Position numbers and translations under genes: made by a program. Below, piece after piece: positions 5,187-57,224 of a stretch of 64,000 bases of DNA. Below the pieces are notes generated by a model. That model worked only from the letters and a program-made list of their open reading frames with translations, ran no database searches and was not told the DNA's origin. Position 1 is the stretch's first letter. Each line of letters begins with the position of its first letter. This stretch comes from Methylophilus sp. 42 (lineage in GTDB: Bacteria > Pseudomonadota > Gammaproteobacteria > Burkholderiales > Methylophilaceae), in assembly GCF_000384155.1 (NCBI RefSeq), contig NZ_KB913031.1:2115092-2179091 (forward strand), in the 5' to 3' direction.

Positions 5187-5194
5187 TGTTTCAT

Positions 5195-14592: not shown

Positions 14593-15116
14593 GCCTGGCT
14601 CTCCGATTCACCAAGCACGGTATGGCAATGCACCAGCACACTCATCAGATACTTTTGTACCATCCTGACGGATACCTGCAGGTTGTCTGCAATTTCTGCA
14701 TGAGACATCCCATCCAGATAACGCATCAGAAAAGCCTCGCGTGGTTTATGCGCAAGACCTTGCAACATGTGGCTGATATGTTCCAGTGCCTCCACTGCCG
14801 ATGCTACCTGTTCGGCTGACGGTGCATATACCTCTCCCATCGCCATCACACCAGCAAGATAGGTTTCCTCAATGACGCGTCGCCTGGCCTGATTCAGCAG
14901 CAAGTGCTTGGCTGTCGTGGTCAGATACGCACGTGGCTCACGCATAGTCAGCAAGGCATCTCGGGACACCAGAATGCGGGTAAACGTATCTTGCATGAGG
15001 TCAGCGGCTGCATGCGGGCAGCCGAGTTTTTTTCTTAACCAGGAAAATAACCAACCGTGATGTTCGCTGTAAAGACTATGCAGGGTTTGTTGCAGTGCAC
15101 GCTCGTTTGCCGGCAT
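14589..15116 (-). CDS. fecI: FecI-type ECF sigma factor 1
   Basis: 175 residues from ATG 15116 (MPANERALQQ...). The frame stays open upstream, but that stretch runs through the Fur box. Region 2 is about 10-75 (LYSEHHGWLFSWLRKKLG, AADLMQDTFTRIL). Region 4 is about 120-170 with the helix-turn-helix MSHAEIADNLQVSVRMVQKY. It is expected to transcribe receptor 1. A near-perfect Fur box lies 28-48 bases upstream. Confidence 0.95.
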   Translation of the reverse strand: MPANERALQQTLHSLYSEHHGWLFSWLRKKLGCPHAAADLMQDTFTRILVSRDALLTMREPRAYLTTTAKHLLLNQARRRVIEETYLAGVMAMGEVYAPSAEQVASAVEALEHISHMLQGLAHKPREAFLMRYLDGMSHAEIADNLQVSVRMVQKYLMSVLVHCHTVLGESESQA

Positions 15117-15143
15117 GTGAAGACAAGTTCCAAAAAAACTACA

Positions 15144-15164
15144 AATGATAATGATTATCATTAT
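15144..15164 (-). promoter_or_regulatory. Fur box of fecI 1
   Basis: AATGATAATGATTATCATTAT is almost exactly the canonical palindromic Fur site GATAATGATAATCATTATC. It is the best site in the window and lies just upstream of fecI 1. Confidence 0.9.
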
Positions 15165-15199
15165 ATCACATTGCGTAATCTTGATGCCGGTCTTCAGGT

Positions 15200-16585: not shown

Positions 16586-16586
16586 A

Positions 16587-34593: not shown

Positions 34594-35823
34594 CTAGCGA
34601 CGGGAACCCTTAAGCTGATGAGCAAGTTTGCGGGAGCGTCGTTTTTTCAGCCAAATGAGCACTCCCGTCACGGTTAAACCAACCACGCCCAAGCCCATGG
34701 CACAGACAAATATCTGCATGGGCAGTCCCCATACTTGGGCAGTATGCAACGCCAGCAGCCATTGCGTGATGGTATCGCCCGCTGCTTCACCAGTCGGTAG
34801 ATAGATAGCCAATTGCTGGCCACTGTTGGCGTTGAATATCACTGCGGTATCTGCGGTTTTTTCAGAAATATCCCGGCTTGAATTCACGACATAGGTATAA
34901 GTGCCTTTGCTCGCATCATAATAAATTTTGGCTTCATGATGAATCGTGAATGCATCATCGTGACTGGCTTGTTGTATCAACTGGCGGCCTGTACCCAAGG
35001 CGGCACTCACATCCAACTGAGGGCTGGTCAAAGGTTGAGTCAGTGTAGGGATTTTTTCATCAAAACTTTGCCGGGCAAACAGAGTGTCCATCACCGGCGT
35101 GTACACCTCACGTAAATTAAACGCCACGCTGGACCAGGCAAAGACAAACAACATGGCCCATACCCATAAGCCACCTGCCCTGTGCAGGTCAAAATTCCGC
35201 TTGGCTGAGCCGCCATGCCAGCGAATTTTCCATGCTTTCCACCAGCGTCTGAGCCAATGCTGCTCTTTAGGCTTATTCCTGATGTTTGACGTGCGCTGTG
35301 GTGCCGGAAACGTTAAGTACGCGCCGACAAAACAATCCAGCGTCCACAATAACGCCACAATCCCAAATAGATAATCGCCCACACTGCCTAACGCCAGTGA
35401 AAAATGCAGGCGGTAAATAAAAGGCAATAAATTAATCGTGCCCTGCGTAATATCGCCCCATTTACGTTCACCGAGGATTTGACCGGTATAAGGATTCACG
35501 AATACTTCGTTGTTGATCACAGCGCTCTCAGGCAGACCGGGGCGTGGCTGTAAACGGAAACGCCTGGATTTATCCGCGACCTGATTTAAATCTATCCTGG
35601 TAATCATTGCGTCAGGATATTGCCTGAGCACTAATGCCGTTAATGCGACCGGGCTTAGCATGGCCTGGTTGGCGGGCGGTACGACGCGCATCACCTCCGG
35701 GTGAATACACGCATCCAGTTCATCGTAAAAAGCGATAAACATGCCGGTAAAGCCAGCCACAACCAAGAACAGCGCCATCACCAAGCCAACATAACGATGC
35801 AGCACAACAAATGTTTGACGCAT
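34594..35823 (-). CDS. PepSY-associated inner-membrane protein B
   Basis: 409 residues from ATG 35823. First helix about 8-32 (HRYVGLVMALFLVVAGFTGM), then FYDELDACIHP, the same signature as protein A. Central helices include DYLFGIVALLWTLDCFVGAY, and the C-terminal helix (GLGVVGLTVTGVLIWL) ends KKRRSRK. It follows receptor 5 by 92 bases across a hairpin and is the last gene of that cassette. A role in releasing or reducing imported iron is presumed for the family, not shown. Confidence 0.88.
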   Translation of the reverse strand: MRQTFVVLHRYVGLVMALFLVVAGFTGMFIAFYDELDACIHPEVMRVVPPANQAMLSPVALTALVLRQYPDAMITRIDLNQVADKSRRFRLQPRPGLPESAVINNEVFVNPYTGQILGERKWGDITQGTINLLPFIYRLHFSLALGSVGDYLFGIVALLWTLDCFVGAYLTFPAPQRTSNIRNKPKEQHWLRRWWKAWKIRWHGGSAKRNFDLHRAGGLWVWAMLFVFAWSSVAFNLREVYTPVMDTLFARQSFDEKIPTLTQPLTSPQLDVSAALGTGRQLIQQASHDDAFTIHHEAKIYYDASKGTYTYVVNSSRDISEKTADTAVIFNANSGQQLAIYLPTGEAAGDTITQWLLALHTAQVWGLPMQIFVCAMGLGVVGLTVTGVLIWLKKRRSRKLAHQLKGSRR

Positions 35824-35865
35824 TAAGCACGCCCCATCAAGCATATCCAGTTCACAAAAACAGGT

Positions 35866-35893
35866 ACCATGCCACTTACCTGAGTGGCATGGT
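35866..35893 (-). terminator. Hairpin with U-tract between receptor 5 and PepSY B
   Basis: ACCATGCCACT and AGTGGCATGGT form a perfect 11-bp stem (6-base loop). On the minus strand it is followed after ACCTG by TTTTTG. It sits 22 bases after the receptor stop and 42 bases before the PepSY start, so it may attenuate PepSY expression relative to the receptor. Confidence 0.65.
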
Positions 35894-35915
35894 GTGCAGT
35901 TCAAGAAGCCATCAA

Positions 35916-38354
35916 TTACCAGCGGTAAGTCATCGTTCCCAATACCGTCCTGCGTGAACCGTATTCACAAGAAGTGATGTCATCACAGATGGCATAACGC
36001 TTATCCATTAAGTTTTTGGCGCTCACAGCCAGCTCTGCCCCCTTGAGCGAAGCGTTCGCTTTAGACAAGTCATAACGTGCACTCATATCGACCAAGGTGT
36101 AGCCAGGCACTTTGAACGACTCGACATAATCACCGTAGGTTTCACCCAGCATACGCAAACCACCGGCCAGTTTCAGGCCTGAGAACGCCCCAGTCATTTT
36201 GTAATCCGCCCAGACAGAAGCCATATTTCTTGGCACGCCAGGGATATGCATGCCACGGTCAGCATCATTACTCTTGGTCACTTTAATATCAGTATAGGTA
36301 TAGCTGGCGATCAGGTTGAGATTTGAAGTAATACCTGCCCTGGCTTCCAGTTCCAGTCCGCGTGATGCAATTTCACCACGCGCAATACTGAAATCTGGAT
36401 GCGCAACATCCGTCGTCGGCACATTGGACTTCTTCAAGTCATACACGGCAGCGGTAAATAACGCGTTATAGCCTTTGGGTTCATATTTCACACCGACTTC
36501 AACCTGCTTGCCTTCTTGTGGCTTAAATAACTCACCGGCAAAATTAGCGCCGCCTTCAGGGGCGAATGACTCGGCATAACTCACATACGGTGCCACGCCC
36601 ATATCGGTGAGATACAACAAACCTGCGGAGCCTGTCGTCGCATGATATTGATTAGATTGCGAGGTGTCTGCCAGATAATCCTTGCTACTCACTTTTGCGT
36701 GGTCACGGCGTATGCCTGCAGAGGCAATCCATTTCGGTGTGATTTTGATACTGTCCTGCAAGTAAATACCGGTCTGGCTATCCGTATCTTTAGTCACACC
36801 GGTATATGGGCCCACCGCCAGAGAACCGTACACAGGATCATATAAATCCAGGTCTGTGGTGGTGCTGTTTAAACGTTTAATGGTGGCATTGCCCGTGTGG
36901 TAGTCTGTGCCCAGCAACAAGGTATGTTCCATCCCAGCCAGGGCAAACTTGCCATGTACCTGATTATCCATCGTGAACAGGCTGCCAGTGATGACTGGAA
37001 TCTGCCATTGGCGACGCTCAATTACACGTAACTGCCCGGGCACATAACCATCCACGCGGATCGAGTATCTGGAACCATCAAAGTCGGTATAGCGCGTATT
37101 CTGGCGGAAGCCCCAGTTATCCGCGAGTTGTTGATCCCAGATATAACCAATGGAGGTACTTTCATAACTTTCGTGGTTTTGCTTGAGATTGCCTGAGTTA
37201 CGGCTGACGGGGATATTGCCGTTCGGGTTGTTAAACACCGTCCCAACCGCGGGCAGTGTGTTATTAGATAAACCCTCATTTTTTTGATATTTGCTTAAGA
37301 GGGTGACCTTGGTCTTGTCCGATGGCTGCCAGGTCAGTGCCGGGGCAATATACGTACGATTATCCTGAGCATGCTCTACCTGCGAGTCACTTTTACGCTC
37401 AAGTGCCGTAAGGCGATAACTCCACACCCCTTCATCGTCAATCCTGTCGCTAAGGTCAAGCGCGAATTGCTTGCGGTCAAAGCTACCAGCTTGCACCTGT
37501 ACTTCATGTATCGGCGTCACTGAAGGCATCTTGCTAACCAGATTCACCATGCCACCAGGTTCGTTTCTACCATAGGTAACAGAGGCTGGGCCACGCAACA
37601 CTTCAATACGCTCCAGACCATAGGGCTCCGCCGCAGTTCTGTTGTAGTTAGACCGTGAACCCATCAGCGAACCATCGGCATAAATCGTACCGTTGGTATA
37701 TAGCGAAAAACCGCGCAGGAAAATATTGGCGTCTGTCACAGAAAAGGCCGAACCTGGCGTGGTGACACCTGCGGTATAGGATAGCGCTTCAGTAATCGAA
37801 CGTGGTTGCTGTGCTTCCACCTGATCTGAAGTCACCACGGAAATCGACCTCGCCGTTTCAAGGATAGGCAAATCCATTTTCGAACTGGTCGCACTACGTT
37901 TTGCCACATAGCCATTCACATGGCTGGTAGCGGTTTCTTTTTCCGTTTCCGACATGACCACGACTTCTGGCAACGTCTGTTCCGGCGACACTTGCGTTTT
38001 GACTTCGGGCGCTTTCACAATGATAAATGTGCCATCCGCCTGCTCTTTAGCCACCAGATTGGTGCCTTCCAGCATCTGACTCAATGCCTGTTTTGCACTC
38101 AGGTTGCCTTTCAACGCGGTGGATTGATGATTGGCCACCACATCACTGGCGAACAATATTTGTACGCCAGCCTGGCTCGCCAGGCTATTCAGCGCTTTGT
38201 CTAGCGGTGCACGTTTGATCTCTATTGCGCGTTTGGATTCTGCTTGTGCTGAGAACGCCAGGCACATGCAGGCAATCAGTGCGGGAATGCGTAAACGCTT
38301 AAGCGTCGATAATGTTGGATGTTCTTGTGGACGATGTAATAACGCGGTGTTCAA
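35916..38354 (-). CDS. TonB-dependent siderophore receptor 5 (hydroxamate-type)
   Basis: 812 residues from TTG 38354, accepted because AAAGAGAG is correctly spaced and no in-frame ATG precedes the signal peptide (about 1-38, AQA). STN 42-113, TonB box TLPEVVVM (127-134). Linker NGYVAKRSATSSKMDLP, plug RIEVLRGPASVTYGRNEPGG, end GTMTYRW. Its STN is of the AIEIKRAPLDKALNSLA type shared with receptors 6 and 10. That goes with the divergent FecI/FecR class of this cassette. Confidence 0.92.
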   Translation of the reverse strand: MNTALLHRPQEHPTLSTLKRLRIPALIACMCLAFSAQAESKRAIEIKRAPLDKALNSLASQAGVQILFASDVVANHQSTALKGNLSAKQALSQMLEGTNLVAKEQADGTFIIVKAPEVKTQVSPEQTLPEVVVMSETEKETATSHVNGYVAKRSATSSKMDLPILETARSISVVTSDQVEAQQPRSITEALSYTAGVTTPGSAFSVTDANIFLRGFSLYTNGTIYADGSLMGSRSNYNRTAAEPYGLERIEVLRGPASVTYGRNEPGGMVNLVSKMPSVTPIHEVQVQAGSFDRKQFALDLSDRIDDEGVWSYRLTALERKSDSQVEHAQDNRTYIAPALTWQPSDKTKVTLLSKYQKNEGLSNNTLPAVGTVFNNPNGNIPVSRNSGNLKQNHESYESTSIGYIWDQQLADNWGFRQNTRYTDFDGSRYSIRVDGYVPGQLRVIERRQWQIPVITGSLFTMDNQVHGKFALAGMEHTLLLGTDYHTGNATIKRLNSTTTDLDLYDPVYGSLAVGPYTGVTKDTDSQTGIYLQDSIKITPKWIASAGIRRDHAKVSSKDYLADTSQSNQYHATTGSAGLLYLTDMGVAPYVSYAESFAPEGGANFAGELFKPQEGKQVEVGVKYEPKGYNALFTAAVYDLKKSNVPTTDVAHPDFSIARGEIASRGLELEARAGITSNLNLIASYTYTDIKVTKSNDADRGMHIPGVPRNMASVWADYKMTGAFSGLKLAGGLRMLGETYGDYVESFKVPGYTLVDMSARYDLSKANASLKGAELAVSAKNLMDKRYAICDDITSCEYGSRRTVLGTMTYRW

Positions 38355-38458
38355 TTTAGCTCTCTTTTAGAAAAATATTTCAGTATGAAATTGCTTCAAA
38401 GAGTAGCCGTATCAGCAGGGCTCCAACCCTACCTTCATTTTCAAAAATAAATTAAAAA

Positions 38459-39328
38459 TTATTTCGTATGAATATAAATGGCGCCATCGGCATGGTGAAT
38501 AACCTTCACCGGCAAGATCTGCGGCAGCAGCTTGATCACATCATCGGTAGACTTTGTATTAAACGTACCAGAGATTTTCAAATTGGCTAATTGCGCATCC
38601 GCCAGTACCACCGGCCTGGTTTCATAGCGCTGCATTTCTGCCAGCGCCTGACGCAATGGCGTGCGTTCAAATATGATTTTTCCGTCTTTCCAGGCTGTCT
38701 GCGTTTTAGTATCCACCGTTTGGACAGACAGAGGACGGGCTGGGTAAGATTGCGTTTGCTGGTCTTTTGTCAGATAGACTTCCTGATATTGCGTGTAGGC
38801 ATTGTGATATCTGCGCACCTGCACCTTACCGCGCAACACCGTCACGGTCGCCTGGTCGCCTTGCAGTAATACATCAAAAATAGTGCCGATCACCTTGATG
38901 CGTGTCACACCAGCCTTAACGTAAAAAGGGCGATACACCTGATGCGCCACATGAAACATCACGCGACCAGACGTTAAAACAACTTGTCTTGACCGCAAAT
39001 GCCAATGCACTTGCAATTGCGTATTGGTATCCAGCGTTAAATGGCTATGGTCCGCCAATGTCAGCGTTTTTTGCTCGCCAATGGCAGAGGCGATTGTTTC
39101 AGTTTTATAGGCAGGGTTTAGCCAGAGCAGTAAAGAGAATACCGCGAAGACAAAGCCGAACACTGGCAAGGCCTTTTTCACGTTGCGCTTGAGGGCCGAG
39201 GTGTTTTTCTCGGCCTGATAAAGGGCCTCGTCGGGCAACGGGAATAACTGCTGCAACTGCGCACGATTGGCTGCAATCGCGTCATCTTCATTCAAAAACT
39301 CTGCAGGTGTGGACGTTTTCTTTTGCAT
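38459..39328 (-). CDS. fecR: FecR-type anti-sigma regulator 5 (short class)
   Basis: 289 residues, shorter than most here. The recognisable DUF4880 pattern (AAEW...F..WL) is missing; the first 50 residues are unrelated. Membrane helix about 53-71 (PVFGFVFAVFSLLLWL), without an Arg-Arg pair. The FecR domain keeps DTNTQLQVHW, HVAHQVYRPFYVKAG and VIGTIF. The C-terminal STN-contacting part ends with TKSTDDVIKLLPQILPVKVI. It lies 11 bases after fecI 5. FecR 7 is its closest relative here. Confidence 0.9.
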   Translation of the reverse strand: MQKKTSTPAEFLNEDDAIAANRAQLQQLFPLPDEALYQAEKNTSALKRNVKKALPVFGFVFAVFSLLLWLNPAYKTETIASAIGEQKTLTLADHSHLTLDTNTQLQVHWHLRSRQVVLTSGRVMFHVAHQVYRPFYVKAGVTRIKVIGTIFDVLLQGDQATVTVLRGKVQVRRYHNAYTQYQEVYLTKDQQTQSYPARPLSVQTVDTKTQTAWKDGKIIFERTPLRQALAEMQRYETRPVVLADAQLANLKISGTFNTKSTDDVIKLLPQILPVKVIHHADGAIYIHTK

Positions 39329-39339
39329 GCGGTTGAGCC

Positions 39340-39912
39340 TTACAAAGCGTTGAAGCGACTAAGCCTGGTGCGGCAGGCAAGCATACCCGCACGTAAATGC
39401 TTCTCAACCATTTTAGTGGAAATATTGAGCCGGCTTGCAACTTCAGCTTGCGGCAATTCGTGAATCTTATGCATGATAAACACCAGTCTACAGCGTTCTG
39501 GCAAGGCATTGATCGCCTCCGCCAGTAGTTGCAGCTCTTGCTTTGCACTTAAAATACGTGAGGCACAGGGCGCATTTGAAGCAACCTCTGGCAGCACCTC
39601 TTGCGATTGCACATAAGCATGGCGGGAGTCTTCTGCACGGCAACGATCAACGGCAATGTCGTGCGAAATACGTTTTAATAACGCCAAGGGAATACGCACC
39701 GGCTCTTTTGGCGTGCGTTCCATCACATGTACACATACATCCTGTACCACATCTTGGGCAAAACCATGGTTGCCAAAACGGCGGCGTACATACTCAACCA
39801 AATGGTCGTAATGCTTGACTAATGCCAACGTCAGCAAAGACTGATTTGGCACATCGCCCGTTGGCGCGCTCAGTAAATGCGTATTTGAATTTTGACCAGA
39901 AACAGGCGCCAT
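39340..39912 (-). CDS. fecI: FecI-type ECF sigma factor 5 (divergent class)
   Basis: 190 residues from ATG 39912; TTG 39924 is also in frame, and neither has a clear ribosome site. The first 25 residues look like a disordered extension. Region 2 differs from the main class: KHYDHLVEYVRRRFGNHGFA, QDVVQDVCVHVMER in place of WLR.KLG...DTF.R. Region 4: HELPQAEVASRLNISTKMVE. FecI 7 shares these features, and both pair with short FecR proteins. Confidence 0.92.
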   Translation of the reverse strand: MAPVSGQNSNTHLLSAPTGDVPNQSLLTLALVKHYDHLVEYVRRRFGNHGFAQDVVQDVCVHVMERTPKEPVRIPLALLKRISHDIAVDRCRAEDSRHAYVQSQEVLPEVASNAPCASRILSAKQELQLLAEAINALPERCRLVFIMHKIHELPQAEVASRLNISTKMVEKHLRAGMLACRTRLSRFNAL

Positions 39913-39937
39913 TGGAGGTGACAAATTGCAATAAGGT

Positions 39938-40063: not shown

Positions 40064-42385
40064 CTACCAGGTATAGCCCAGGGTGCCAATGACCGTCCGT
40101 GGTTGTGCCAGATAGCAATAGCCCTGGGTACAAATCGTATAGCGGTTATCTGCCAGGTTGGTGGCATTGACTGCTAAGCGCCAGTGCTCGTCAATTTGGT
40201 AGTGCGTGGTCATATCAAACACGGTCGCACTATTATTGCTAAAGCTGTTGGCATCATCCCCATAGCTACCCCCCATATGACGCACACCTGCGCCAATACC
40301 TAAGCCCTGCAGGCTACCCGAAGGCAAGGTATAGTCCGCCCACAATGACAGGTTATTTTTAGGCTGACCAGACAGCAGGTTGTCATAGTTCTCGTCCTGG
40401 CGGCTGGTCAGTTTAGGCATCAAATAGGTATAAGCAGCTGTCACGTTGACACCAGAATCCAGGCTGGCTTTCGCTTCCACTTCAAAGCCGCGTGAACGTA
40501 CTTCTCCCGCCTGGGTCTGGCTGGCTGGCCCGCTGGCAATCACCACATTTTGCTGGGTAATTTGAAACACCGATGCCGTCAACATCAGGTTGAGGTCTTC
40601 TGGCTTGAACTTCACCCCGGCCTCGACCTGCTTGCCCGTCGTTGGCTTGAAAAAGCCCCCGGCAGCGTTGCGGCCCACCACTGGTACAAAAGAGGTCGCA
40701 TAACTGATATACGGCATCACGCCATGCTCCAGCTGATAGCTCAGGCCAACCCGGCCGGTAAACTTCTTAAAGTTGCCATCATCATCGTCTGTCAGTGTTT
40801 TCTGTGCGGTTTCTGCCCAGTCGCGGCGACCACCTATGGTCAGTATCCATTGCTGCCACTTGAGTTGTTCCTGAGCGTATATGCCGGTCTGGTGCATGCC
40901 ATATTCATAAGGCTGATCCAGCACTGGGCTACTGATAGGCTGTGTACCATAGTTGTGTGTGCTTACATCAAGATCAGGTGCTGCACCAAACCCCATCTTG
41001 CCGTTGTTGAGAGACTTGGTCCAATCCAGGCCAAACAAGACCGTATGCTGCACACTGCCGGTATTGCCTTGCCACTGTGCCTGGTTATCAATGGCATAAG
41101 TATGCAAGCGCTCGACCAACCGCCCGGTACTGCGGCTGGCGATATTGCCACTGACACTGTCAATCTGCGTATAGCGGGCATCCGCATCCACCCGCCCGGT
41201 ACGCACATTCTGGCGCAAGGTCCAATGTTCATTCAGCAAGTGCTCAAATAAATAGCCTATCTGGTATTGTTCCTGAGTGAAATCCTGAAACGCCGGATCG
41301 CCGCTTGGCAAGCTTCTCACCACACGCCCGTTAGTGTCATTAAAATAGGACGAGTTACCAACCGTCGTATCTTTCTGGTAATGCGTCAATACCGTCAATG
41401 TAGTTTTTTCATTGGGCTGCCAGGTGAAAGCCGGTGCGATATACGTCCGGTCATCATGCCCGCCTTTGACCGGGCTATCGCTATCACGATACAAACCGGT
41501 CAGGCGATAAGCCAGGGTATTGTCAGCATCCAACGCGCCAGTCGTATCAAAGCGCACCTGTTGCCTGTCATAGTTGCCTAACTGGATATCAGCCTGGTGC
41601 CTGGCTTCAAACTGCGGACGTTTGCTCACAATATTCACCAGCCCGCTGGGCTCGGCCTGGCCGTATAACACCGAGCTCGGGCCTTTCAGGATATCAATCC
41701 GCTCCGCAGAATAAGGTTCTTCTTTATACAGCGCAAAATTGCTGCTGAGCTGACGCAGCCCGTCGCGATAAACCCCGGTATAAGTCATATCAAAACCGCG
41801 AATACTAAAGGAATCAAAGCGCGGGTCAAAACCAAACGCACCGACCCGCACACCCGGGGTATATGCCACAGCCTCGGTTAAAGTCTGCACGTTTCTGGCA
41901 TTCATCTCATCGCGGGTGACCACTGAGATCGATTGCGGCACCTCGGCCAATGGCGTGTCCGTTTTGCTACCTGTCGCACTGCGTTTAGCCACATAGCCCT
42001 TGACTGGTCCATAGGCGGTTTCCTCAACACGCTGGCTTGACACATTCACTTCAGGCAACGTTTGTGGGTCCACTTTACTTTCGGACTTTGGCGGCACCTC
42101 GGTAATGGCATAGCCGCCAGTGGAGGTTGGCTTGATCATCAACCCACTGCCGGCCAGCAATTTTTCCAATGCCTGGCGCGTGGTGTAATCCCCTTTCAGG
42201 GTCGATGAGGTTTTCTTATCGGTAATACCGGTCGAAAAAATAATACGTTCCCCGGTCTGGTGCGCAAGTGCATTAAGTGCTTTATCGAGGGGCTGGGATG
42301 GAATATTCAGCTCAACAGCCAGAGCAGGGAAAGTCAGTTGCGCGAGCAACAACGCCATAAAAGCAGAACAACGGGAACGAGGCAT
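40064..42385 (-). CDS. TonB-dependent siderophore receptor 6 (hydroxamate-type)
   Basis: 773 residues. Signal peptide about 1-23 (ALA). STN 24-95 (VELNIPSQPLDKALNALA). TonB box TLPEVNVS (109-116). Linker GPVKGYVAKRSATGSKTDTP, plug EVPQSISVVTRDEM and RIDILKGPSSVLYGQAEPSG, end GTLGYTW. No fecI-fecR pair lies directly upstream: the preceding gene is receptor 7, which ends in a strong terminator. Its STN type matches receptors 5 and 10. By that logic its regulators are FecI 7 and FecR 7, now 4.1 kb away. Confidence 0.92.
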   Translation of the reverse strand: MPRSRCSAFMALLLAQLTFPALAVELNIPSQPLDKALNALAHQTGERIIFSTGITDKKTSSTLKGDYTTRQALEKLLAGSGLMIKPTSTGGYAITEVPPKSESKVDPQTLPEVNVSSQRVEETAYGPVKGYVAKRSATGSKTDTPLAEVPQSISVVTRDEMNARNVQTLTEAVAYTPGVRVGAFGFDPRFDSFSIRGFDMTYTGVYRDGLRQLSSNFALYKEEPYSAERIDILKGPSSVLYGQAEPSGLVNIVSKRPQFEARHQADIQLGNYDRQQVRFDTTGALDADNTLAYRLTGLYRDSDSPVKGGHDDRTYIAPAFTWQPNEKTTLTVLTHYQKDTTVGNSSYFNDTNGRVVRSLPSGDPAFQDFTQEQYQIGYLFEHLLNEHWTLRQNVRTGRVDADARYTQIDSVSGNIASRSTGRLVERLHTYAIDNQAQWQGNTGSVQHTVLFGLDWTKSLNNGKMGFGAAPDLDVSTHNYGTQPISSPVLDQPYEYGMHQTGIYAQEQLKWQQWILTIGGRRDWAETAQKTLTDDDDGNFKKFTGRVGLSYQLEHGVMPYISYATSFVPVVGRNAAGGFFKPTTGKQVEAGVKFKPEDLNLMLTASVFQITQQNVVIASGPASQTQAGEVRSRGFEVEAKASLDSGVNVTAAYTYLMPKLTSRQDENYDNLLSGQPKNNLSLWADYTLPSGSLQGLGIGAGVRHMGGSYGDDANSFSNNSATVFDMTTHYQIDEHWRLAVNATNLADNRYTICTQGYCYLAQPRTVIGTLGYTW

Positions 42386-42494
42386 GTGTAATCCAGTACA
42401 GTTAAATTAATCAGTAATACTGGTATGTCGTTTGAGCGATGAAAGATGTTGAGGTCTGTTTTAATATTTTTCTAAAAAATAATAAGTCCCCGAT

Positions 42495-42526
42495 AAAAAA
42501 GCACCGGCGTATGCGAGCCGGTGCTT
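42495..42526 (-). terminator. Strong terminator of receptor 7
   Basis: AAGCACCGGC and GCCGGTGCTT form a perfect 10-bp stem with an 8-base loop, followed on the minus strand by TTTTAT. It lies 19 bases after the receptor 7 stop and isolates receptor 6 from upstream transcription. Confidence 0.92.
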
Positions 42527-42545
42527 GAAGATCAGATAGGGATCA

Positions 42546-44921
42546 TTAAATCTCTAGCTTGAGCGCCACACCGAACAAACGTGGTGCGCCGACATCAATG
42601 ACATCGCCACTACTATTATTGGTGATATATTCGCGACCAAACAAGTTACGTACAAAGGCATTGACTGTGGTACGCGGGTTCAGGCGATAGGAGGCATTGG
42701 CATTGACCAGCACCACACTGTCGTTACGCCGGGTTTCCGTCAGCAGGTAGACCGACGGACTGCTGTCCTGGTATACCGTATCGACATTGAACAACCACTG
42801 ATTGCCCAAATGGTAATTCAGCCCAAGATTCACTTTGGTTCTCGGCGCCATAATGAACTGCTTGCCGCGCATATTGAGGCCATCACTGTTGATAAAGTCC
42901 AGGTACTCAGTGTGGTTGTAGGCGGCGCCAGCAATCATTTGCCAGTCACTATTAATCGCATACTCAGCGGAGACCTCCAGGCCGCGCATACGGCTTCTGG
43001 CAGCATTAGAAATATACAAACGATTCAATGCATCGCGCTGACGCACCTGCTGGTCCTTCCAATCGGTGTAATACACGTTGGCAAACGTTTTCAGGCCGTA
43101 TTCAGGCCAGCTACCCCGATAAGAAAATTCATAGGTGGTAGTAAATTCGGCATCATATGGCCGGTGATCGGATGGCACCCGCATATTAATACCACCGCCC
43201 CGATAGCCACGTTGCACCATAAACCCGGTTCGCTGGGTAGGCGACCAGATGTAGTTGATGCCCGCTTTTGGCAGTAAGGCGCCAAAAGTCTTTTTGTCAT
43301 CGGCTTCTGTGACGGGTGATAGCGAGAAGGTATCTAGCACATAATCTACCTTGGCCTCATTCTTCTCACGGTCATAACGCAAACCGGCGATGGCTTGCCA
43401 GTGCGGGTCAAAATCCCAGTTGACCTCGCCAAAAATGGCCTTATTACGTATCTGGCTTCTGCCATCTGCCATCAATACTGATCCCAAGCCCACAATACCC
43501 AAGGTATCATTAAACTTGATTCTGGAAGAACCGTAATAGAAACCTGCATGAGCCTTCAGTGTTTCCCCTTGGTAAGTGGCACGGAACTCCTGGCTAAATA
43601 ACCTGGTTTGATGGTGACGATTGGCTTCTTCACTGTCTACTGCGCCCTGATCAAAGTCCAGCAAGCTTTGATAATTGGCATTGGTACCTGAGGTGATGCT
43701 GGTCAATAGCCATGGCTGGCTTAACTGGTAAGTCAGCTTCAGGGTTGCCTCATTTTGCTGTATAGCATCAAACGCATCTGTATTCTGAACCAGCCGGTAG
43801 TACTGTGGCTGGTTATTGACTTGCGTTACGCCATTGCTACCGGCGTGATAATCCGTATGCGATAGCGTCAACAACGCTTCTGTTTTTTCACCCGCCAGTA
43901 ACAGCAATTTGCCACGGGCATTGATAGACCGGCGCGGGTCGGCGTTGTTATCCAGCACACGGTTTTTGATATAGCCATCTTCATTTTGCACATTCAATGT
44001 AAAACGGCCCGCCAGCACATCCGGCACCAGCTCGGCGTTCGCCGTCAACGCCCCACCCTGCTGGTAGTAATTGCCAAGATTGCCCTGCAATGTCAGTGCA
44101 TTTTTAAACTCGGGATCATTGGTTTGCATAATCACGGCGCCCGCCAATGCGTTGCGGCCTTGCACGGTGGATTGTGCGCCACGGTACACCTCGACCTGCT
44201 TCATATCCCAGGTCGAGAGCGGGCTCATGGTCACCATACTGCTGGTTTGCAAGGCACCATCGACAAACACCGATACCGCATTATTAAGCGAGAGCGGCCC
44301 CTGGTCATCAAAACCGGTCACCGGCACCCCACGGATGCCCCAGGTTTCATTACGCGATTGCGTATACACCCCAGGCGTACGCGCCATGATATCTGCCAAT
44401 GACTGATCAGAATGAGTGCGTATATCTTGCGCGGTTGCCACGGCCACGCTAGAGAATGTTTCGCTCAGTTTGCGTTCGATTTTTTCACCTTTGACCACCA
44501 CCTCACTTAAGGTATCGATCGATGCTGTGTTGGTGGTGGTTGGCGCTGTTCGGCCACTGACTTTAGCCATTCTTTTCAACGAATATTGCTGGCCGCCCTT
44601 GTCCTCCAGCGTAAACTCGCTGCCCTTCAGCAAGGCATCAAAGCCTTCATTCACGCTGTAATAGCCTTGCAGGCCGTCACTTTTGATATTGGCTACCAGT
44701 GCCGGGTCAAAAGATAAACGGGTGCCAGTCAATGCGGCAAACTCTGCCAGCACATGTCCCAATGGGCCTGGCGCCAGTTGATAGCGTTGTTTTTCCGAAG
44801 TCACTTTAGCGTTGTCTGCCAGGGCCGGCGTCGGGCTGGCGGCAAGCATAAGGCTCCAGCCACAGAGCGCAATACGCAGCGCACGCTGAAGTGGAGTGAA
44901 TTGAAATGTTGAGGATGACAT
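42546..44921 (-). CDS. TonB-dependent receptor 7 (signalling type, FyuA-like plug)
   Basis: 791 residues. Signal peptide about 1-35 (ALA), STN 46-116, TonB box DTLSEVVVKG (136-145). The plug is unlike the other nine: ADIMARTPGVYTQSRNETWG, then NAVSVFVDGALQTSS and QVEVYRGAQSTVQGRNALAG. It lacks the PQS.SV/PF...S motif and recalls FyuA/pesticin-type or general catecholate receptors. The barrel ends GVALKLEI, with no aromatic last residue. It lies 104 bases after FecR 6, its likely regulator. Confidence 0.92.
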   Translation of the reverse strand: MSSSTFQFTPLQRALRIALCGWSLMLAASPTPALADNAKVTSEKQRYQLAPGPLGHVLAEFAALTGTRLSFDPALVANIKSDGLQGYYSVNEGFDALLKGSEFTLEDKGGQQYSLKRMAKVSGRTAPTTTNTASIDTLSEVVVKGEKIERKLSETFSSVAVATAQDIRTHSDQSLADIMARTPGVYTQSRNETWGIRGVPVTGFDDQGPLSLNNAVSVFVDGALQTSSMVTMSPLSTWDMKQVEVYRGAQSTVQGRNALAGAVIMQTNDPEFKNALTLQGNLGNYYQQGGALTANAELVPDVLAGRFTLNVQNEDGYIKNRVLDNNADPRRSINARGKLLLLAGEKTEALLTLSHTDYHAGSNGVTQVNNQPQYYRLVQNTDAFDAIQQNEATLKLTYQLSQPWLLTSITSGTNANYQSLLDFDQGAVDSEEANRHHQTRLFSQEFRATYQGETLKAHAGFYYGSSRIKFNDTLGIVGLGSVLMADGRSQIRNKAIFGEVNWDFDPHWQAIAGLRYDREKNEAKVDYVLDTFSLSPVTEADDKKTFGALLPKAGINYIWSPTQRTGFMVQRGYRGGGINMRVPSDHRPYDAEFTTTYEFSYRGSWPEYGLKTFANVYYTDWKDQQVRQRDALNRLYISNAARSRMRGLEVSAEYAINSDWQMIAGAAYNHTEYLDFINSDGLNMRGKQFIMAPRTKVNLGLNYHLGNQWLFNVDTVYQDSSPSVYLLTETRRNDSVVLVNANASYRLNPRTTVNAFVRNLFGREYITNNSSGDVIDVGAPRLFGVALKLEI

Positions 44922-44984
44922 GATCCTGATTGCTCCCTAAGTATAAATAACGAAATGGCCAGGTCATGGCCTTCATCATGTACA

Positions 44985-45009
44985 CCGGATGAAGACTAAA
45001 AAAGTATCA
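44985..45009 (-). promoter_or_regulatory. Candidate FecI-type promoter of receptor 7
   Basis: On the minus strand, TGATACTTTTTTAGTCTTCA is followed by TCCGG. It has the same T-rich block plus TTC(A/G)T(T/C)CG arrangement as the leaders of receptors 2 and 9. Confidence 0.4.
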
Positions 45010-45025
45010 GGGTGAGCAACATTTT

Positions 45026-45991
45026 TTATCCTGCCGTATTGGCAGGCTCAACCATGATCCAGTAACGGCTGGGGATAAGCACGCGTACCGGTAAGGTTTT
45101 TTGTAATAAATCGAGCGCAGCATCAGTATCGTTTAAAGGAAACGCACCAGACACAACCATTTGCCTGAGGTCAGGGTGACAACGAATGACGCCATGACGA
45201 TAACGTGCCAGTTCTTTGAGCAACGTTTCTAACGGCATTTCCTGTGCCAGCAACATGCCCTGCTGCCAATAACCTACATGTTGCTCAGCACGACGTGTTT
45301 GCTCTAAGCCATGGCGATTAAATGCACGTTGCTGCCCGGCCTGTACCACGCTGCTCTGGCCATTGTCGAGTTGAATACGCACCTCGCCTTCGGTCACCGC
45401 CAATATGGTACGCTCAGCAGTCAACTTGACATTAAAGCGTGTGCCCAATGGCACCAGCTCACCATGCGGCGTGATGACGACCAATTTGCGCTTGTCCTGA
45501 TGCCCGGTTTCCAACCAAACCTCACCTTGATGCAACACAATCTGCCGTTGCTCGCGATACTGAATATCCACGGCAGAGTCTGTATTCAATACCAGATGCG
45601 TGCCATCGCCCAAATGCAGGTGCTTTTGTTCACCGACAGCCGTCTGATATTCAGCCTGCCAGCGTGTTAAAGGCAAGGCGCGATATCCCAGCCAGGCACT
45701 GGGTAATATCAGCCCCAGCGTGCCCAGCTTTTTGAGTGCATGCCTGCGTGACGCATGGTCCATGCGCGTGAGCACCTGTTTGGCCAGAGCTTTGCGCTGC
45801 ACTTGTCCAAATGTGTGCTCTATCTGCGTGAGTCGTGACCAGGCTTCTGCATGCTGTGGATGGCTGCTTTGCCAATGTTCAAACGCCGCCTGTGTCGCCG
45901 GATTTGCCGCCTCCGTCTGTAATTTAAGCAGCCAGTCCACGGCCTGGGTCAGCACCTGTGGATCCAGCGTTTGGGTGGTGTTTGAAATCAT
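45026..45991 (-). CDS. fecR: FecR-type anti-sigma regulator 6
   Basis: 321 residues from ATG 45991, which overlaps the fecI 6 stop by four bases. DUF4880 region about 12-55 (QAVDWLLKL...F.HW). Twin-arginine-like ASRRHALKKLG (80-90) before a hydrophobic stretch (about 88-103). The FecR domain includes NTDSAVDIQYREQR, GEVWLETGHQDKRKLVV and PLGTRF. The C-terminal region keeps HPDLRQMVVSGAFPLNDTDA. Confidence 0.93.
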   Translation of the reverse strand: MISNTTQTLDPQVLTQAVDWLLKLQTEAANPATQAAFEHWQSSHPQHAEAWSRLTQIEHTFGQVQRKALAKQVLTRMDHASRRHALKKLGTLGLILPSAWLGYRALPLTRWQAEYQTAVGEQKHLHLGDGTHLVLNTDSAVDIQYREQRQIVLHQGEVWLETGHQDKRKLVVITPHGELVPLGTRFNVKLTAERTILAVTEGEVRIQLDNGQSSVVQAGQQRAFNRHGLEQTRRAEQHVGYWQQGMLLAQEMPLETLLKELARYRHGVIRCHPDLRQMVVSGAFPLNDTDAALDLLQKTLPVRVLIPSRYWIMVEPANTAG

Positions 45992-46488
45992 AGGCTTAAA
46001 CACGCCAGATAGGCTTTACGCATATGCCGTTTGACAGTGATGAGTGACATATCCAGTTGATCCGCAATTTGCTGGTAAGTCAGCCCATCCAGTTGCGCCA
46101 GCAGGAAGATAGCGCGCGTTTGCGCGGGCATGGTTTGCAGCAGGCGATCAATTTGCCGCAGCGACTCCAGAATCAGGTGCTGCTCTTCAGCCGACGGCCA
46201 CGAACCGGGAGGCAATTGTGCCAGCGTTTCCTGATACGCGCGTTCGACTTGCTGGTGGCGCCAGTGGTCAATCACCAGCCCTTTGGCGATATGCACCAGC
46301 AAGGCCCTGGGCTCTGTACCGAGCTGGGCCAGCTTGTTGTGGTGCATGATGCGCACAAACGTGTCGTGCGCAATATCTGCCGCATCCCAGCTATTGCCGG
46401 TTTTTTTGCGTAACCAGCCCTGCAGCCAGTCATGATGCTGGCGATAAACATCGTGCAATTGCTGCCAGCGTATATTCAGCAAGGCCAT
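45988..46488 (-). CDS. fecI: FecI-type ECF sigma factor 6
   Basis: 166 residues from ATG 46488; GTG 46497 is a weaker alternative. Region 2: VYRQHHDWLQGWLRKKTG, AADIAHDTFVRIM. Region 4: DGLTYQQIADQLDMSLITVK. It is the only sigma gene here with no Fur box. Just 43 bases separate it from fecR 7, so it probably depends on the fecI 7 promoter. Confidence 0.94.
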   Translation of the reverse strand: MALLNIRWQQLHDVYRQHHDWLQGWLRKKTGNSWDAADIAHDTFVRIMHHNKLAQLGTEPRALLVHIAKGLVIDHWRHQQVERAYQETLAQLPPGSWPSAEEQHLILESLRQIDRLLQTMPAQTRAIFLLAQLDGLTYQQIADQLDMSLITVKRHMRKAYLACLSL

Positions 46489-46531
46489 GGCAGGCACTTT
46501 CTGGTAGAAATGGCAAATGATTCAACCATGA

Positions 46532-47383
46532 TTAGCGCTGCCGGATCACGATGGTTCCACCCTCGTGCCGTGCGATGCGTACCGGTAAAATTTCTGGCAA
46601 GGTATCGATCAATGCATCGATGCCATTGATATCGTACTCGCCTGACATACGGTAATGGGCAATGCGTGCATCTGCAATTTCAATCTGCCCGTGATGGTAA
46701 CGCTGCAACTCGCTGACAACCTCTGCCAGGGTATCGCCGTCAAACATCAGCCGCCCTTGCTGCCAAACAGTCGCAGCAGCCGCTGAAGCATGGCGTGTTG
46801 TCGACATGTCAGCCGCATGCGTGCTCACAGACTGGTTCTGGAAAATCTGGCGTTGCGCGGAGGCCGTACGTACGTCTACCGCACCCTCAACCACCGTCAC
46901 CACGGCACCTTGTCCATGATGACGCACATTAAACACCGTGCCAATATCCCGGATAGCGGTCTGATGTGCATAGACAGTGAAAGGTCGCCATGCATGCGCG
47001 ACACTGAACAAAGCCTCCCCTTGCTGCAAACGTAATTGCCGGGAGTAAAGACGCTGCTCAACCAGCAATACACTATTGGTGTTAAGCGTGACACGGCTGC
47101 CATCTTTCAACATATAACTGGCTTGCTGCCCGACCATGGTATGCAGGTCTTCTCGCTGCAATACCGGGTCTACATACCAGCTGAGTGCAATGACGCTGAT
47201 GGCGGCAATACCAGCAGTGATTTTTTTCAAACGGCGCTGTTGCCGGGTCTGCTGTTGGGCTGCGCGCAGAATGTCTTCCCGCGAAGGAAAGTGCTTACGT
47301 AATGCCTGCGTATAAGGGCTGAGCACATCCGGTACATTCCCCTGCTCCGGCAACGGACGGGCTTCATGGCGACTGATCTTCAT
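46532..47383 (-). CDS. fecR: FecR-type anti-sigma regulator 7 (short class)
   Basis: 283 residues from ATG 47383, overlapping the fecI 7 stop by four bases. Like FecR 5 it has no recognisable DUF4880 pattern. Basic QQRRLKK (48-54) precedes the helix (about 55-70). The FecR domain includes NTNSVLLVEQRLYSRQ, FSVAHAWRPFTVYA and DIGTVF. The C-terminal region ends INGIDALIDTLPEILPVRI, very like FecR 5. It probably serves receptor 6, not the nearer receptor 7. Confidence 0.9.
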   Translation of the reverse strand: MKISRHEARPLPEQGNVPDVLSPYTQALRKHFPSREDILRAAQQQTRQQRRLKKITAGIAAISVIALSWYVDPVLQREDLHTMVGQQASYMLKDGSRVTLNTNSVLLVEQRLYSRQLRLQQGEALFSVAHAWRPFTVYAHQTAIRDIGTVFNVRHHGQGAVVTVVEGAVDVRTASAQRQIFQNQSVSTHAADMSTTRHASAAAATVWQQGRLMFDGDTLAEVVSELQRYHHGQIEIADARIAHYRMSGEYDINGIDALIDTLPEILPVRIARHEGGTIVIRQR

Positions 47384-47892
47384 GCCTGCGCTCCCCACGC
47401 CCGCTGGATGGTCGCCATCGCCTTGGTGAAATGCTGTGTCACCATATTGCGCGAAATACCCAGTGCATCCGCAATTTCCTGCTGTGGCATTTCATGCAAT
47501 CGGTGCAGTAGAAACACCTGCTGCTGACGCGGCGGTAATGCTTCGATAATGCGTTTTAACGCCTCTAATCGCTGCACAAAGTGCAATACCCGCTCGCCAT
47601 CCACCTCATGTGTCTGCGCCAGCGTGTCCTGCATGCTGTGCACGTGAGACTGCTGCGTCTGCTGCTGGCGGTAACGGTCTATGGCCCGGTTTCTGGAAAG
47701 CCGACGCAAAAAGGCCATGGGGGTATTCACCGGCTGGCCCAGTGGCCGCTCCATGATCTCTATGCAGACGTCATGCACCACATCCTGTGCGAAATGCTGG
47801 TCACCAAAGTGACGCTTCACATAATTGACCAATTCATCGTAGTGATACACCAGGGTCACCACAAGTTTGGAGTTTTCGGGATGGAGCAACAC
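47380..47892 (-). CDS. fecI: FecI-type ECF sigma factor 7 (divergent class)
   Basis: 170 residues. Region 2: YHYDELVNYVKRHFGDQHFA, QDVVHDVCIEIMER. Region 4: HEMPQQEIADALGISRNMVT. It is a clear sister of FecI 5. It heads a run fecI-fecR-fecI-fecR in which two regulator pairs lie in series. A Fur box lies 59-77 bases upstream. Confidence 0.94.
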   Translation of the reverse strand: MLLHPENSKLVVTLVYHYDELVNYVKRHFGDQHFAQDVVHDVCIEIMERPLGQPVNTPMAFLRRLSRNRAIDRYRQQQTQQSHVHSMQDTLAQTHEVDGERVLHFVQRLEALKRIIEALPPRQQQVFLLHRLHEMPQQEIADALGISRNMVTQHFTKAMATIQRAWGAQA

Positions 47893-47950
47893 AGCAATGA
47901 GGCAGACAATTATTTAAACGGACATCTTAACGGCCTCGATGAAAAAATAC

Positions 47951-47969
47951 AAATGAAAATCATTATCAA
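47951..47969 (-). promoter_or_regulatory. Fur box of fecI 7
   Basis: AAATGAAAATCATTATCAA: a good second half (ATCATTATC) and a weaker first half. It may control both sigma/anti-sigma pairs downstream. Confidence 0.75.
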
Positions 47970-55881: not shown

Positions 55882-56079
55882 TCATCGCCGCCTTGACGAT
55901 GACTCCATCACCTTGGCTTTTCGCCAATAACATCCCATCACTACAAGTGGCAGAGCCATGGCGACCCATGATAGCCAATGCCAGATGCCTGTTCCAAGCA
56001 GGGCTGACAACAAACCAAAGACCGTCAGTAACGAAAGCACAATAGGCCAGCCCCAGATATCGATAAACCGTTTATTCAT
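55882..56079 (-). CDS. Small two-helix membrane protein
   Basis: 65 residues with two hydrophobic segments (about 12-30 and 34-52) and a basic tail (SSSRRR). I do not recognise a named family. Its ATG overlaps the stop of PepSY protein C by four bases, so translation is coupled and the gene is likely real. It is the last gene of the receptor 9-PepSY C run. It may be a small partner of the PepSY protein. Confidence 0.7.
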   Translation of the reverse strand: MNKRFIDIWGWPIVLSLLTVFGLLSALLGTGIWHWLSWVAMALPLVVMGCYWRKAKVMESSSRRR

Positions 56080-57224
56080 CGCACACCTCCTCTCGCCGTT
56101 GCTGCATGCTTATGCTCAAGATCGGCAATACGCTGCTCGGTATGCTGACGACGCTTGATCCAGAGATACAAGCCGCTCACCAGCACCACAATCGTCACTA
56201 AATCCAGCAAGGCCCAAATAATCTTTAGCGGCAACCCGCCATAATCGCCAAAATGCAGCGGTTGTGATAACAAGAGCGTTTTGACATACCAGGGCATCTC
56301 ACGTGTATCGGTTAACTTTGCAGTCTGCGCATCAATCAAGGCCGGGCGCAACAAACGGGAAGTGACCGGCGTATTGCCTTTCAGAAATACCGTGTAATGG
56401 TGCGGGCTGGAGAACATACTGCCCGGAAAGGCCACAAAGCTTACATGCATATCCGGCACGGCCTGCTTGGCAGTGTCAATCGAGTCTTGCAAAGAGCCCA
56501 GCTTGACCGGTGGTGGCAAGCCTTTATACGGCGCAATCATCTCCGCCATTTGATCGGCTTGCCAGACCATAATCACAATCTGGCTCAAGGTGTTGATGGT
56601 ACCGGTGATGCCGACAACCAACGCCCAGACCAGCGTCGCCACACCCAGCAAGTTATGGATATCCAGCCACTTTAACCTGGCCTGCTTCTCGCGCCTGACG
56701 GTGCCGAAATCCAGTCGCCGCATAAAGGGGTGATACAGCACAATGCCCGAAATGATGGCCACAGCGAACAGCAAACCCATCAAGCCAAGAAACAGCATGC
56801 CGGGCAAGCCGGCAAACATATCAATATGCAACTTGAGCATGACATACATAAAGCCATGGTCTGGCGGCGGTTCATCCAGAACTTTGGCAGTGCGTGAGTC
56901 AATCAGCACGATATTCGAATCATCCGGCGACGCATCCATAGACTTTGCCATCGAAACCAGCGTGACATTCGGGTGCTCGTCTTGCTCCCAGAACATAAAG
57001 CGAATCACATCTTGGGGCCGCTGTTGACGGGCAGCCTCAGCGACGGCATCCATACTGGCATTGGGCGTTCCCTCTGCCATGGCAGGCGCTTCGACCACGC
57101 CGGACAACTGCTCGATTTCCTCATGAAAGATCAATGGCAAACCGGTGATGCACAGCATCAGCAAAAAAGCTGTGCAAACCAGGCTGCTCCATTTATGTGT
57201 CAAATACCACGTACGAATGCTCAT
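56076..57224 (-). CDS. PepSY-associated inner-membrane protein C
   Basis: 382 residues with four predicted helices: about 13-33 (SLVCTAFLLMLCITGLPLIF), 140-165, 190-212 and 335-358 (LLDLVTIVVLVSGLYLW). The opening HKWSSLVCTAF and the FHEEIEQL loop place it in a different PepSY subfamily from proteins A and B. It starts 28 bases after the receptor 9 stop, so it is co-transcribed with it. It probably helps process the imported metal complex, by family context only. Confidence 0.88.
   Translation of the reverse strand: MSIRTWYLTHKWSSLVCTAFLLMLCITGLPLIFHEEIEQLSGVVEAPAMAEGTPNASMDAVAEAARQQRPQDVIRFMFWEQDEHPNVTLVSMAKSMDASPDDSNIVLIDSRTAKVLDEPPPDHGFMYVMLKLHIDMFAGLPGMLFLGLMGLLFAVAIISGIVLYHPFMRRLDFGTVRREKQARLKWLDIHNLLGVATLVWALVVGITGTINTLSQIVIMVWQADQMAEMIAPYKGLPPPVKLGSLQDSIDTAKQAVPDMHVSFVAFPGSMFSSPHHYTVFLKGNTPVTSRLLRPALIDAQTAKLTDTREMPWYVKTLLLSQPLHFGDYGGLPLKIIWALLDLVTIVVLVSGLYLWIKRRQHTEQRIADLEHKHAATARGGVR

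Follow-up and report, generated by a model that had tools for sequence, protein, structure and literature searches.

Two Fec-type signalling systems very probably share one locus in Methylophilus sp. 42, a complete FecI6-FecR6-rec7 set lying between fecR7 and the promoter of the receptor gene rec6, with the two receptors separately inducible. The window analysed is a stretch of 64,000 nucleotides, in which open reading frame coordinates and Pfam assignments agree with the minus-strand gene order given in a preliminary description of this DNA, fecI7-fecR7-fecI6-fecR6-rec7-terminator-rec6 (Table 1). The locus belongs to Fec-type cell-surface signalling, with sigma factors, FecR regulators and STN-bearing receptors all present: FecI6 and FecI7 both score above the Pfam cut-offs for sigma regions 2 and 4 (Sigma70_r2 and r4_2), FecR6 and FecR7 are likewise above cut-off, and each fecR gene overlaps its own fecI. 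The STN of rec6 is above the Pfam cut-off; that of rec7 is under it (20.6 vs 28.4 bits), yet residues 48-116 align with FecA signalling-domain structures. Elsewhere in the window, at 6541-8820, a flanking gene encodes the large chain of ribonucleotide reductase.

Table 1. Features of the locus, in window coordinates.
Feature	Position	Strand	Basis or remark
Fur box 5' of fecI7, GATAATGATTTTCATTTGT	47949..47967	-	14/19 against a Fur consensus; putative
fecI7, ECF sigma factor, host cassette	47380..47892	-	Pfam Sigma70_r2/r4_2
fecR7, sigma regulator, host cassette	46532..47398	-	FecR + FecR_C, DUF4880 hit absent; overlaps fecI7
Gap from fecR7 stop to probable fecI6 ATG, 43 nt	46489..46531	-	Without good Fur-box match or conserved block
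fecI6, ECF sigma factor, cassette proposed as inserted	45988..46497	-	Probable start is the conserved ATG at 46488; Pfam Sigma70_r2/r4_2
fecR6, sigma regulator, cassette proposed as inserted	45026..46003	-	Pfam DUF4880 + FecR
FecI6-type promoter element 5' of rec7	44972..45011	-	Pattern match; predicted
rec7, TonB-dependent transducer, FecR6-type STN	42546..44921	-	Pfam plug/barrel and STN comparison
Terminator-like hairpin between rec7 and rec6	42499..42526	-	10 pairs, 7 G-C, T-tail
FecI7-type promoter element 5' of rec6, GACCTCAACAT..CGACATACCA	42421..42456	-	Pattern match; predicted
rec6, TonB-dependent transducer, FecR7-type STN (aa 24-100)	40064..42385	-	Pfam and STN comparison

That a complete unit lies between fecR7 and the receptor belonging to it had been proposed in the preliminary description, and this is supported by uninterrupted loci in relatives and by a cassette with promoter and STN types of its own. 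The uninterrupted order fecI7-fecR7-receptor is present at 6 of the 12 loci compared, four in Methylophilus (G060, G061, G067 and G079, whose contig starts within fecR7) and two in other genera (G173 and G053); the nested loci are those of G000, G059, G064, G065, G073 and G074. The E-value cut for FecR7 was passed by 14 of 187 genomes; two of these, G063 and G068, were excluded from the 12, their match being 33-35% identical and part of a different cassette that G067 and G064 also carry elsewhere. In a search of distant relatives the nested order was found in Methylophilus only (4 loci among the best 80 of 89 named loci having rec7 relatives; 399 genomes of the order including some of the family), a search in which more diverged nested loci could escape notice.

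These loci bear on the alternative that fecI7-fecR7-fecI6-fecR6-rec7 is an original paired system, the contiguous loci having since lost fecI6-fecR6-rec7 by deletion. It would be consistent with this that the block is intact in six Methylophilus genomes that do not form one rpoB clade (the tree holds 20 of 24 genomes, three being without a match and G056, in two pieces, being omitted), and that the most diverged copy of the insert, in G059, comes from a species whose rpoB branch is among the longer ones. However, the FecR7-type loci of the other genera are contiguous; outside the family none of the seven genomes with FecR7-like proteins is nested, a receptor following fecR directly in six and the contig ending in one; and the trees of insert and host disagree. 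We consider an ancestral pair improbable, and a few outgroup loci suggest that the contiguous state is ancestral. Since the nested species are not a single clade, later loss or spread by recombination must be invoked. G073 groups with G067 in the host tree, with G065 in the insert-sigma tree and with G074 in the rec7 tree (all starred), and windowed DNA identity is consistent with these placements; from this conflict between insert and host it follows that recombination, too, has moved the insert.

The FecI7-type element in front of rec6 is the sole match in the 2.97-Mb genome, and a shorter FecI7-type motif has one site in each of 10 genomes of the genus with the locus and none in 12 without it; the promoters of the G173 and G053 receptors are without the CGACA half. 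The FecI6-type pattern has one site each in the six nested genomes and G057, and none in the other 23 of 30. As both patterns were derived from loci that they match, only this singleness and the absence elsewhere are informative. The STN of rec6 is 64-74% identical to those of nine other Methylophilus receptors of the locus, and a comparison with seven Methylophilus same-locus receptors having other barrels gives 64-70% for the STN and 20-41% for plug and barrel. By STN and promoter, rec6 would pair with FecR7. Alternatively, rec6 could be an unrelated orphan that arrived behind rec7, the receptor of FecI7/FecR7 having been lost; its barrel is only about 40% identical to that of recX, the receptor of the uninterrupted Methylophilus loci, which has the promoter and STN of rec6, and G064 and G065 each bear a further cassette between rec7 and rec6. 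But rec6 carries a FecR7-type STN and the only FecI7-type promoter site in its genome, and the G074 receptor, with an unrelated barrel, likewise combines this promoter and STN type, all of which makes an orphan origin very unlikely.

The preliminary description had likened rec6 to rec5 in STN type and FecI7/FecR7 to FecI5/FecR5 in class, and each likeness holds in part. An LDKALN core and a GYVAKRSAT linker are common to the two receptors, but their STNs are just 36% identical and not of the same type; both FecRs have FecR_C and give no DUF4880 hit, but identity is only ~43% for FecI and ~33% for FecR. The nearest paralogue of FecR7 is FecR10, encoded just beyond the window (41%). As a candidate for the original partner of FecR7, rec5 was ruled out, promoter and STN assigning rec6 to FecI7/FecR7. 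As a whole protein recX is about equally identical to rec5 and rec6 (39-42%), and a PepSY_TM gene follows rec5, as it does recX in relatives; the STN and promoter region of rec5 match the FecR5-paired receptor of G173 (STN 78%, barrel 20%).

In its barrel rec6 resembles receptors such as those for enantio-pyochelin, FoxA and FhuA, and the protein aligns with FoxA over residues 26-772. It is a relative of the ferrioxamine/ferrichrome (FoxA/FhuA) receptors that falls short of full-length family membership, scoring below the curated cut-offs (NF010650, 668.6 bits vs 904; FhuA NF007465, 543 vs 803; FoxA NF047944, 403 vs 1300). Because regulators, promoter and STN are constant at the locus while plug and barrel vary, the present barrel was probably acquired separately and is not the one that stood there at insertion. 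The G060 and G061 loci, considered as a clean barrel swap just past the STN, were rejected as such on a finer profile: identity falls from 92-100% to 54-92% within the 3' end of fecR4 (~13650), remains at that level across the promoter and the STN, and is lost past the STN. Since the drop begins in fecR, the replaced tract takes in the fecR end, the promoter and the STN.

The fecI6-fecR6-rec7 unit is self-consistent, with a promoter type and an STN type of its own. In G057, fecI6/fecR6-like genes occur together with this promoter and STN type but with a different barrel, and its receptor, paired with the FecR6-like protein, is 57% identical to rec7 in the STN; the FecR7-paired receptor of G067 is 32% identical there. 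The barrel of rec7 is weakly like the FyuA/pesticin receptor, and rec7-like barrels elsewhere stand with other FecI/FecR genes or with none (best 80 of 89 loci). No stand-alone fecI6-fecR6-rec7 donor was found either at these loci or in the 399 genomes of the order. It could also be that the interleaved pairs are cross-wired and share receptors, rec7 for example addressing FecR7 as well, with which adjacency and probable co-transcription would accord; but the STN identities of rec7 (32% vs 57%) and the two promoter elements, which differ and are each class-specific, make this very unlikely.

STN identity is correlated with FecR identity (r 0.66, p 0.0002), a correlation that barrel identity lacks (r 0.05, p 0.17), in a Mantel test on 25 of 41 FecR/receptor pairs, non-redundant, with FecRs <60% identical and drawn from loci fetched for likeness to the fecI7-fecR7 locus; but the nearest-STN rule ranks the nearest FecR first in just 13 of 25. 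Seven of the 13 receptor-labelled reading frames without an adjacent FecR were used in the STN analysis, five labelled rec0 and G059 2670-4769 being omitted.

Scored against a 19-position Fur consensus, fecI6 is, in line with the preliminary description, the only sigma gene of the window without a good Fur-box match: 8 of 9 fecI genes match at 13-18/19 near the start and fecI6 at 11/19, a score equalled or exceeded at 515 of 127,964 positions. The match of fecI10, just beyond the window, is also within 13-18/19 near its start. Before fecI7 the match is 14-15/19 in eight other genomes of the genus (register shifted in two), 13/19 in G053 and only 11/19 in G173. Before fecI6, a good Fur match or a conserved block is absent in all six nested genomes, where the fecR7-fecI6 gap has a mean pairwise identity of 42% (minimum 23%); fecI6 is intact in G059. 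Junctions were viewed by eye, and the fecR7-side gaps are too diverged for target-site duplications to be read. The inserted regulators probably borrow the promoter of the fecI7/fecR7 pair, and fecI7-fecR7-fecI6-fecR6 would be co-transcribed from this single promoter with its putative Fur box. Promoter-like and terminator-like sites occur in the scans in chance numbers, one promoter-like site lying inside fecR7 (46944-46916, minus strand).

The earlier suggestion of one transcript for both systems is unlikely to extend to rec6, because a terminator-like hairpin and a FecI7-type promoter motif of its own precede that gene. The hairpin has the longest stem among 8 listed terminator-like sites (shuffles yield a mean of 8.7 sites); a hairpin with T-run also stands behind rec7 in G074 and G059, and one without T-run in G073. 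One shared mRNA would cover the four regulator genes only, perhaps with rec7 by read-through.

We propose that FecI7-FecR7-rec6 is the host system, in which rec6 would be a siderophore receptor of the outer membrane, its STN would address FecR7, and FecI7 would switch rec6 on from its own promoter. The second system, FecI6-FecR6-rec7, would have entered between fecR7 and the rec6 promoter, bringing a FecI6-type promoter and a different barrel. As this entry point spares the FecI7-dependent promoter and the receptor STN, FecI7 could still act on rec6 in trans; and since the separated rec6 keeps a promoter and signalling domain fitting FecI7/FecR7, both signalling systems probably still work. 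The four regulator genes would form one Fur-repressed operon off the fecI7 promoter, so that iron would set the supply of both sigma/regulator pairs together, whereas induction of each receptor would be separate and depend on the ligand of that receptor. Among relatives, fecI-fecR with promoter, signal peptide and STN are constant, and plug and barrel vary by species. A wider reading, which we put forward tentatively, is that the fecI7-fecR7 locus is a genomic socket, with fecI, fecR, promoter and STN fixed, barrels exchanged and foreign cassettes entering between fecR and the promoter of the receptor; three different cassettes occupy this gap, the first shared by the six nested genomes and one more each in G064 and G065.

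No title or abstract retrieved describes such a nested cassette, and none treats Methylophilus with TonB-dependent and FecI. In E. coli fecIR-fecA, as outlined in PMC9249621, fecIR is under Fur and sigma-70 and the receptor gene has its own sigma(FecI) promoter. The ECF sigma factor, FecR regulator and STN-bearing receptor are common to both; unlike in E. coli, a second complete cassette here parts fecIR from the receptor promoter, and two sigma/regulator pairs probably depend on a single promoter with a Fur box. In FoxI-FoxR-FoxA of Pseudomonas aeruginosa the receptor STN is described as contacting the regulator's periplasmic STN-like domain (PMC11637429); here gene order differs and there is a nested partner. 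In Pseudomonas, exchange of the N-terminal signalling domain in PupB/PupA chimeras re-assigns signalling, while transport follows the barrel (Koster et al. 1994, cited in PMC9249621). Those chimeras were made in the laboratory, whereas here one STN type occurs with unrelated barrels in nature, at one locus.

The locus therefore looks like a natural counterpart of the chimeras, one signalling cap (regulators, promoter and STN) being found with several unrelated barrels in related species. Promoter motif and STN together offer a way to assign receptors that do not adjoin a FecR, and the locus is a predicted case of two sigma pathways on one iron-controlled promoter. If the socket reading is true, tandem signalling operons would arise in nature, with the iron-controlled promoter of the host driving an inserted sigma/regulator pair.

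The minus-strand gene order of the preliminary description, metE-fecI7-fecR7-fecI6-fecR6-rec7-hairpin-rec6-fecI5-fecR5-rec5, was confirmed in the genome of Methylophilus sp. 42 (G000; 2.97 Mb, one contig). The window encodes ten TonB-dependent receptors, rec1-rec10, with a Pfam match to the N-terminal signalling domain, STN; the scores of rec1, rec2 and rec7 are at or under the Pfam cut-off. A FecR gene lies directly upstream of nine of them, that of rec10 just outside the window; rec6 is the only one without, and FecR7 is the sole FecR of the window with no receptor behind it. PepSY_TM proteins, which we take to be possible ferric-siderophore reductases or exporters, adjoin window receptors in three places (see table); a protein of similar kind also follows the receptor in several relatives.

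It had been proposed that a complete unit, fecI6-fecR6-rec7, landed between fecR7 and rec6. A search for FecR7-like proteins (E <= 1e-40) in 187 genomes of the family gave matches in 14; G063 and G068, which hold a different cassette, were left out, and 12 loci were kept, ten of them from Methylophilus. Six are contiguous, with the receptor straight behind fecR7 (G060, G061, G067, G079 and, from other genera, G173 and G053), and six are nested (G000, M. aquaticus VKM B-3159 (G059), M. rhizosphaerae CBMB127 (G064), G065, Methylophilus sp. 14 (G073) and Methylophilus sp. QUAN (G074)). The uninterrupted loci, together with the insert's own promoter and STN type, support the proposal. The G079 contig begins inside fecR7, and its receptor gene changes frame close to the 3' end, either a draft-assembly error or a real frameshift. 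metE is directly upstream of fecI7 in 7/10 Methylophilus loci; the distance is 3.7 kb in G064 and 4.9 kb in G059, and the G079 contig stops short of metE. Where the retrieved sequence extends far enough, in G059, G060, G061, G067, G073, G074 and G079, a ribonucleotide reductase gene is found downstream.

The same gene order in distant relatives would argue against an insertion. Outside the family, FecR7-profile matches (E <= 1e-45) were found in 7 of 399 genomes drawn from the order, part of these FecRs being closer to FecR5 than to FecR7; none of the seven loci is nested, six having the receptor straight behind fecR and one being cut by a contig end. Among the best 80 of 89 named loci with rec7 relatives only four are nested, all Methylophilus; in at least six (L130, L131, L133, L134, L166, L177) the relative follows a FecI/FecR pair of a different class, and the majority of the remainder align only from about residue 130 onward, so that STN is not covered. 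G173 shows the window's order minus the insert: fecI7-fecR7-receptor-fecI5-fecR5-receptor-PepSY_TM gene. This speaks for insertion rather than loss, with the reservation that FecI5/FecR5 may have been transferred, as close FecR5 proteins occur within the genus only in G000.

Although separated from them, rec6 appears still to belong to FecI7/FecR7. The element GACMTCAACA-N-CGACA precedes the last receptor in the ten Methylophilus genomes with the locus, as the only site in each, and has no site in the other 12 genomes of the genus; its reversed control matched twice across all 22. Since the pattern was written from its own sites, the informative part is its singleness and its absence elsewhere. 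A longer form of the FecI7-type promoter pattern has one match in the genome, a shorter form one in the window against 0.24 expected, and G173 and G053 retain only the ATCAACAT half. In STN, rec6 shares 70% identity with the G067 receptor, 64% with those of G060 and G074, 58% with G053, 57% with rec10 and 48% with G173; its identity to rec5 is only 36%, so the earlier assignment of both to one STN type was not upheld. The plug+barrel of the G074 last receptor is 20% identical to that of rec6. The partner of FecI7/FecR7 would thus be marked by STN and promoter, not by barrel.

The insert, for its part, appears to be a complete cassette in its own right. A different element, CCTGATAC-T-run-CCGGTGTASATGATGAA, precedes rec7; this pattern, likewise written from the sites it matches, occurs once in each of the six nested genomes and once in G057, and was absent from the other 23 of 30 searched. 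G057, of another genus, has fecI6 and fecR6 genes 66% and 45% identical to those of the window and a receptor whose STN is 57% identical to that of rec7, with an unrelated barrel (17%). The rec7 barrel resembles the pesticin receptor only weakly. That of rec6 is closest, among solved structures, to the enantio-pyochelin receptor, FoxA and FhuA, and rec6 comes closest to ferrioxamine and ferrichrome receptor models, below their cut-offs. These barrel matches suggest that the ligands of the two receptors differ.

Fur boxes were scored against a 19-base consensus. Before fecI7 the score is 14-15/19 in the nine Methylophilus genomes covering its upstream region, 13/19 in G053 and only 11/19 in G173. 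The claim that fecI6 is the only sigma gene lacking a Fur box stands in so far as it scores 11/19 (10-12/19 in the other five nested genomes) against 13-18/19 for the other eight fecI genes of the window; however, the stand-alone fecI6-like gene of G057 also scores only 12/19, and so the value cannot be read as loss of a box on entry. Between fecR7 and fecI6 the nested genomes have a gap of 31-44 nt, whose mean pairwise identity is 42% (minimum 23%) and which has no conserved core, unlike the 100 nt before rec7 (77/67%), the last receptor (54/42%) and fecI7 (56/43%). The terminator scan found no site in this gap and one between rec7 and rec6; one promoter-like site lies inside fecR7, and both kinds of site are about as numerous here as expected by chance. 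The best reading is that a single Fur-controlled promoter would serve fecI7-fecR7-fecI6-fecR6 as one operon, with each receptor gene transcribed from its own start.

After its arrival the insert has moved among species by recombination, as conflicting trees and a mosaic of identities indicate. In the rpoB tree the nested G000, G073, G074 and G065 form one group (88/98), while G064 and G059 fall outside it, among contiguous genomes where the backbone is unresolved. With starred support, G073 groups with the contiguous G067 for FecI7+FecR7, with G065 for FecI6+FecR6 and with G074 for rec7. Windowed DNA identity of G073 to G065 is up to 94% in fecI6 and 81-91% in fecR6 (metE 87-90%), to G074 90-96% over most of rec7 (metE 85-86%), and to G067 78-86% in the last receptor. 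The rec7-rec6 gap seems to take up cassettes repeatedly, because two genomes hold a second complete one there, of different kinds and orientations: fecI4/fecR4/rec4-like in G064 (L095) and inverted, with a rec8-like receptor, in G065 (L096).

Across 25 non-redundant FecR/receptor pairs, from loci fetched for similarity to the window locus, STN identity correlates with FecR identity (r = 0.66, Mantel p = 0.0002), but there is no such correlation for plug+barrel identity (r = 0.05, p = 0.17). The nearest STN is that of the nearest FecR in 13/25, so the rule holds within classes rather than everywhere. G060 and G061 provide a recent case. Their DNA is on average 95.5% identical over 14.3 kb, but in the neighbouring fecI4-like cassette identity drops to 54-92% near the 3' end of fecR4 and stays low across promoter and STN. 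The two STNs remain similar (85% in their central part), and the barrels are unrelated (~20%), that of G061 being ~98% identical to G067's. Thus the tract from the fecR end to the receptor-gene end was replaced, with STN type kept and barrel changed. The G074 receptor joins a FecR7-type promoter and STN to a barrel otherwise known from a FecR4-paired receptor (78% identical in plug+barrel to that of G060; barrel DNA 74%), the two alignments meeting at about position 14411 of L099, inside the final third of the sequence that encodes STN. Both rec5 and one receptor of G173 have FecR5-class regulators, very similar promoter regions and STNs 78% identical, with unrelated barrels (20%).

Coordinates of features discussed in the text
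Feature	Sequence	Positions
Ribonucleotide reductase gene	window	6541-8820
PepSY_TM protein	window	20423-21676
PepSY_TM protein	window	34594-35904
PepSY_TM protein	window	56076-57224
rec5 with FecR5-class regulators	window	35916-39924
Divergent fecI4-like cassette	L093 (G060)	3559-6250
Divergent fecI4-like cassette	L094 (G061)	14137-16721
Last receptor	L099 (G074)	14077-16506
Receptor split over two frames	L100 (G079)	661-3065
Receptor compared with rec5, with FecR5-class regulators	L101 (G173)	2691-6715

Judged by sequence, the parts of the locus are those of ordinary Fec-type cell-surface signalling, in which receptor and fecIR have separate promoters and signalling specificity is set by STN (PMC9249621, PMC11637429). 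Titles and abstracts of the open-licence PMC papers found by the searches yielded no description of a nested cassette, a shared promoter or barrel variety behind one cap (regulators, promoter and STN). What sets the Methylophilus locus apart is its nested arrangement, the shared promoter that this would imply, and the range of barrels that occur naturally with a single cap.
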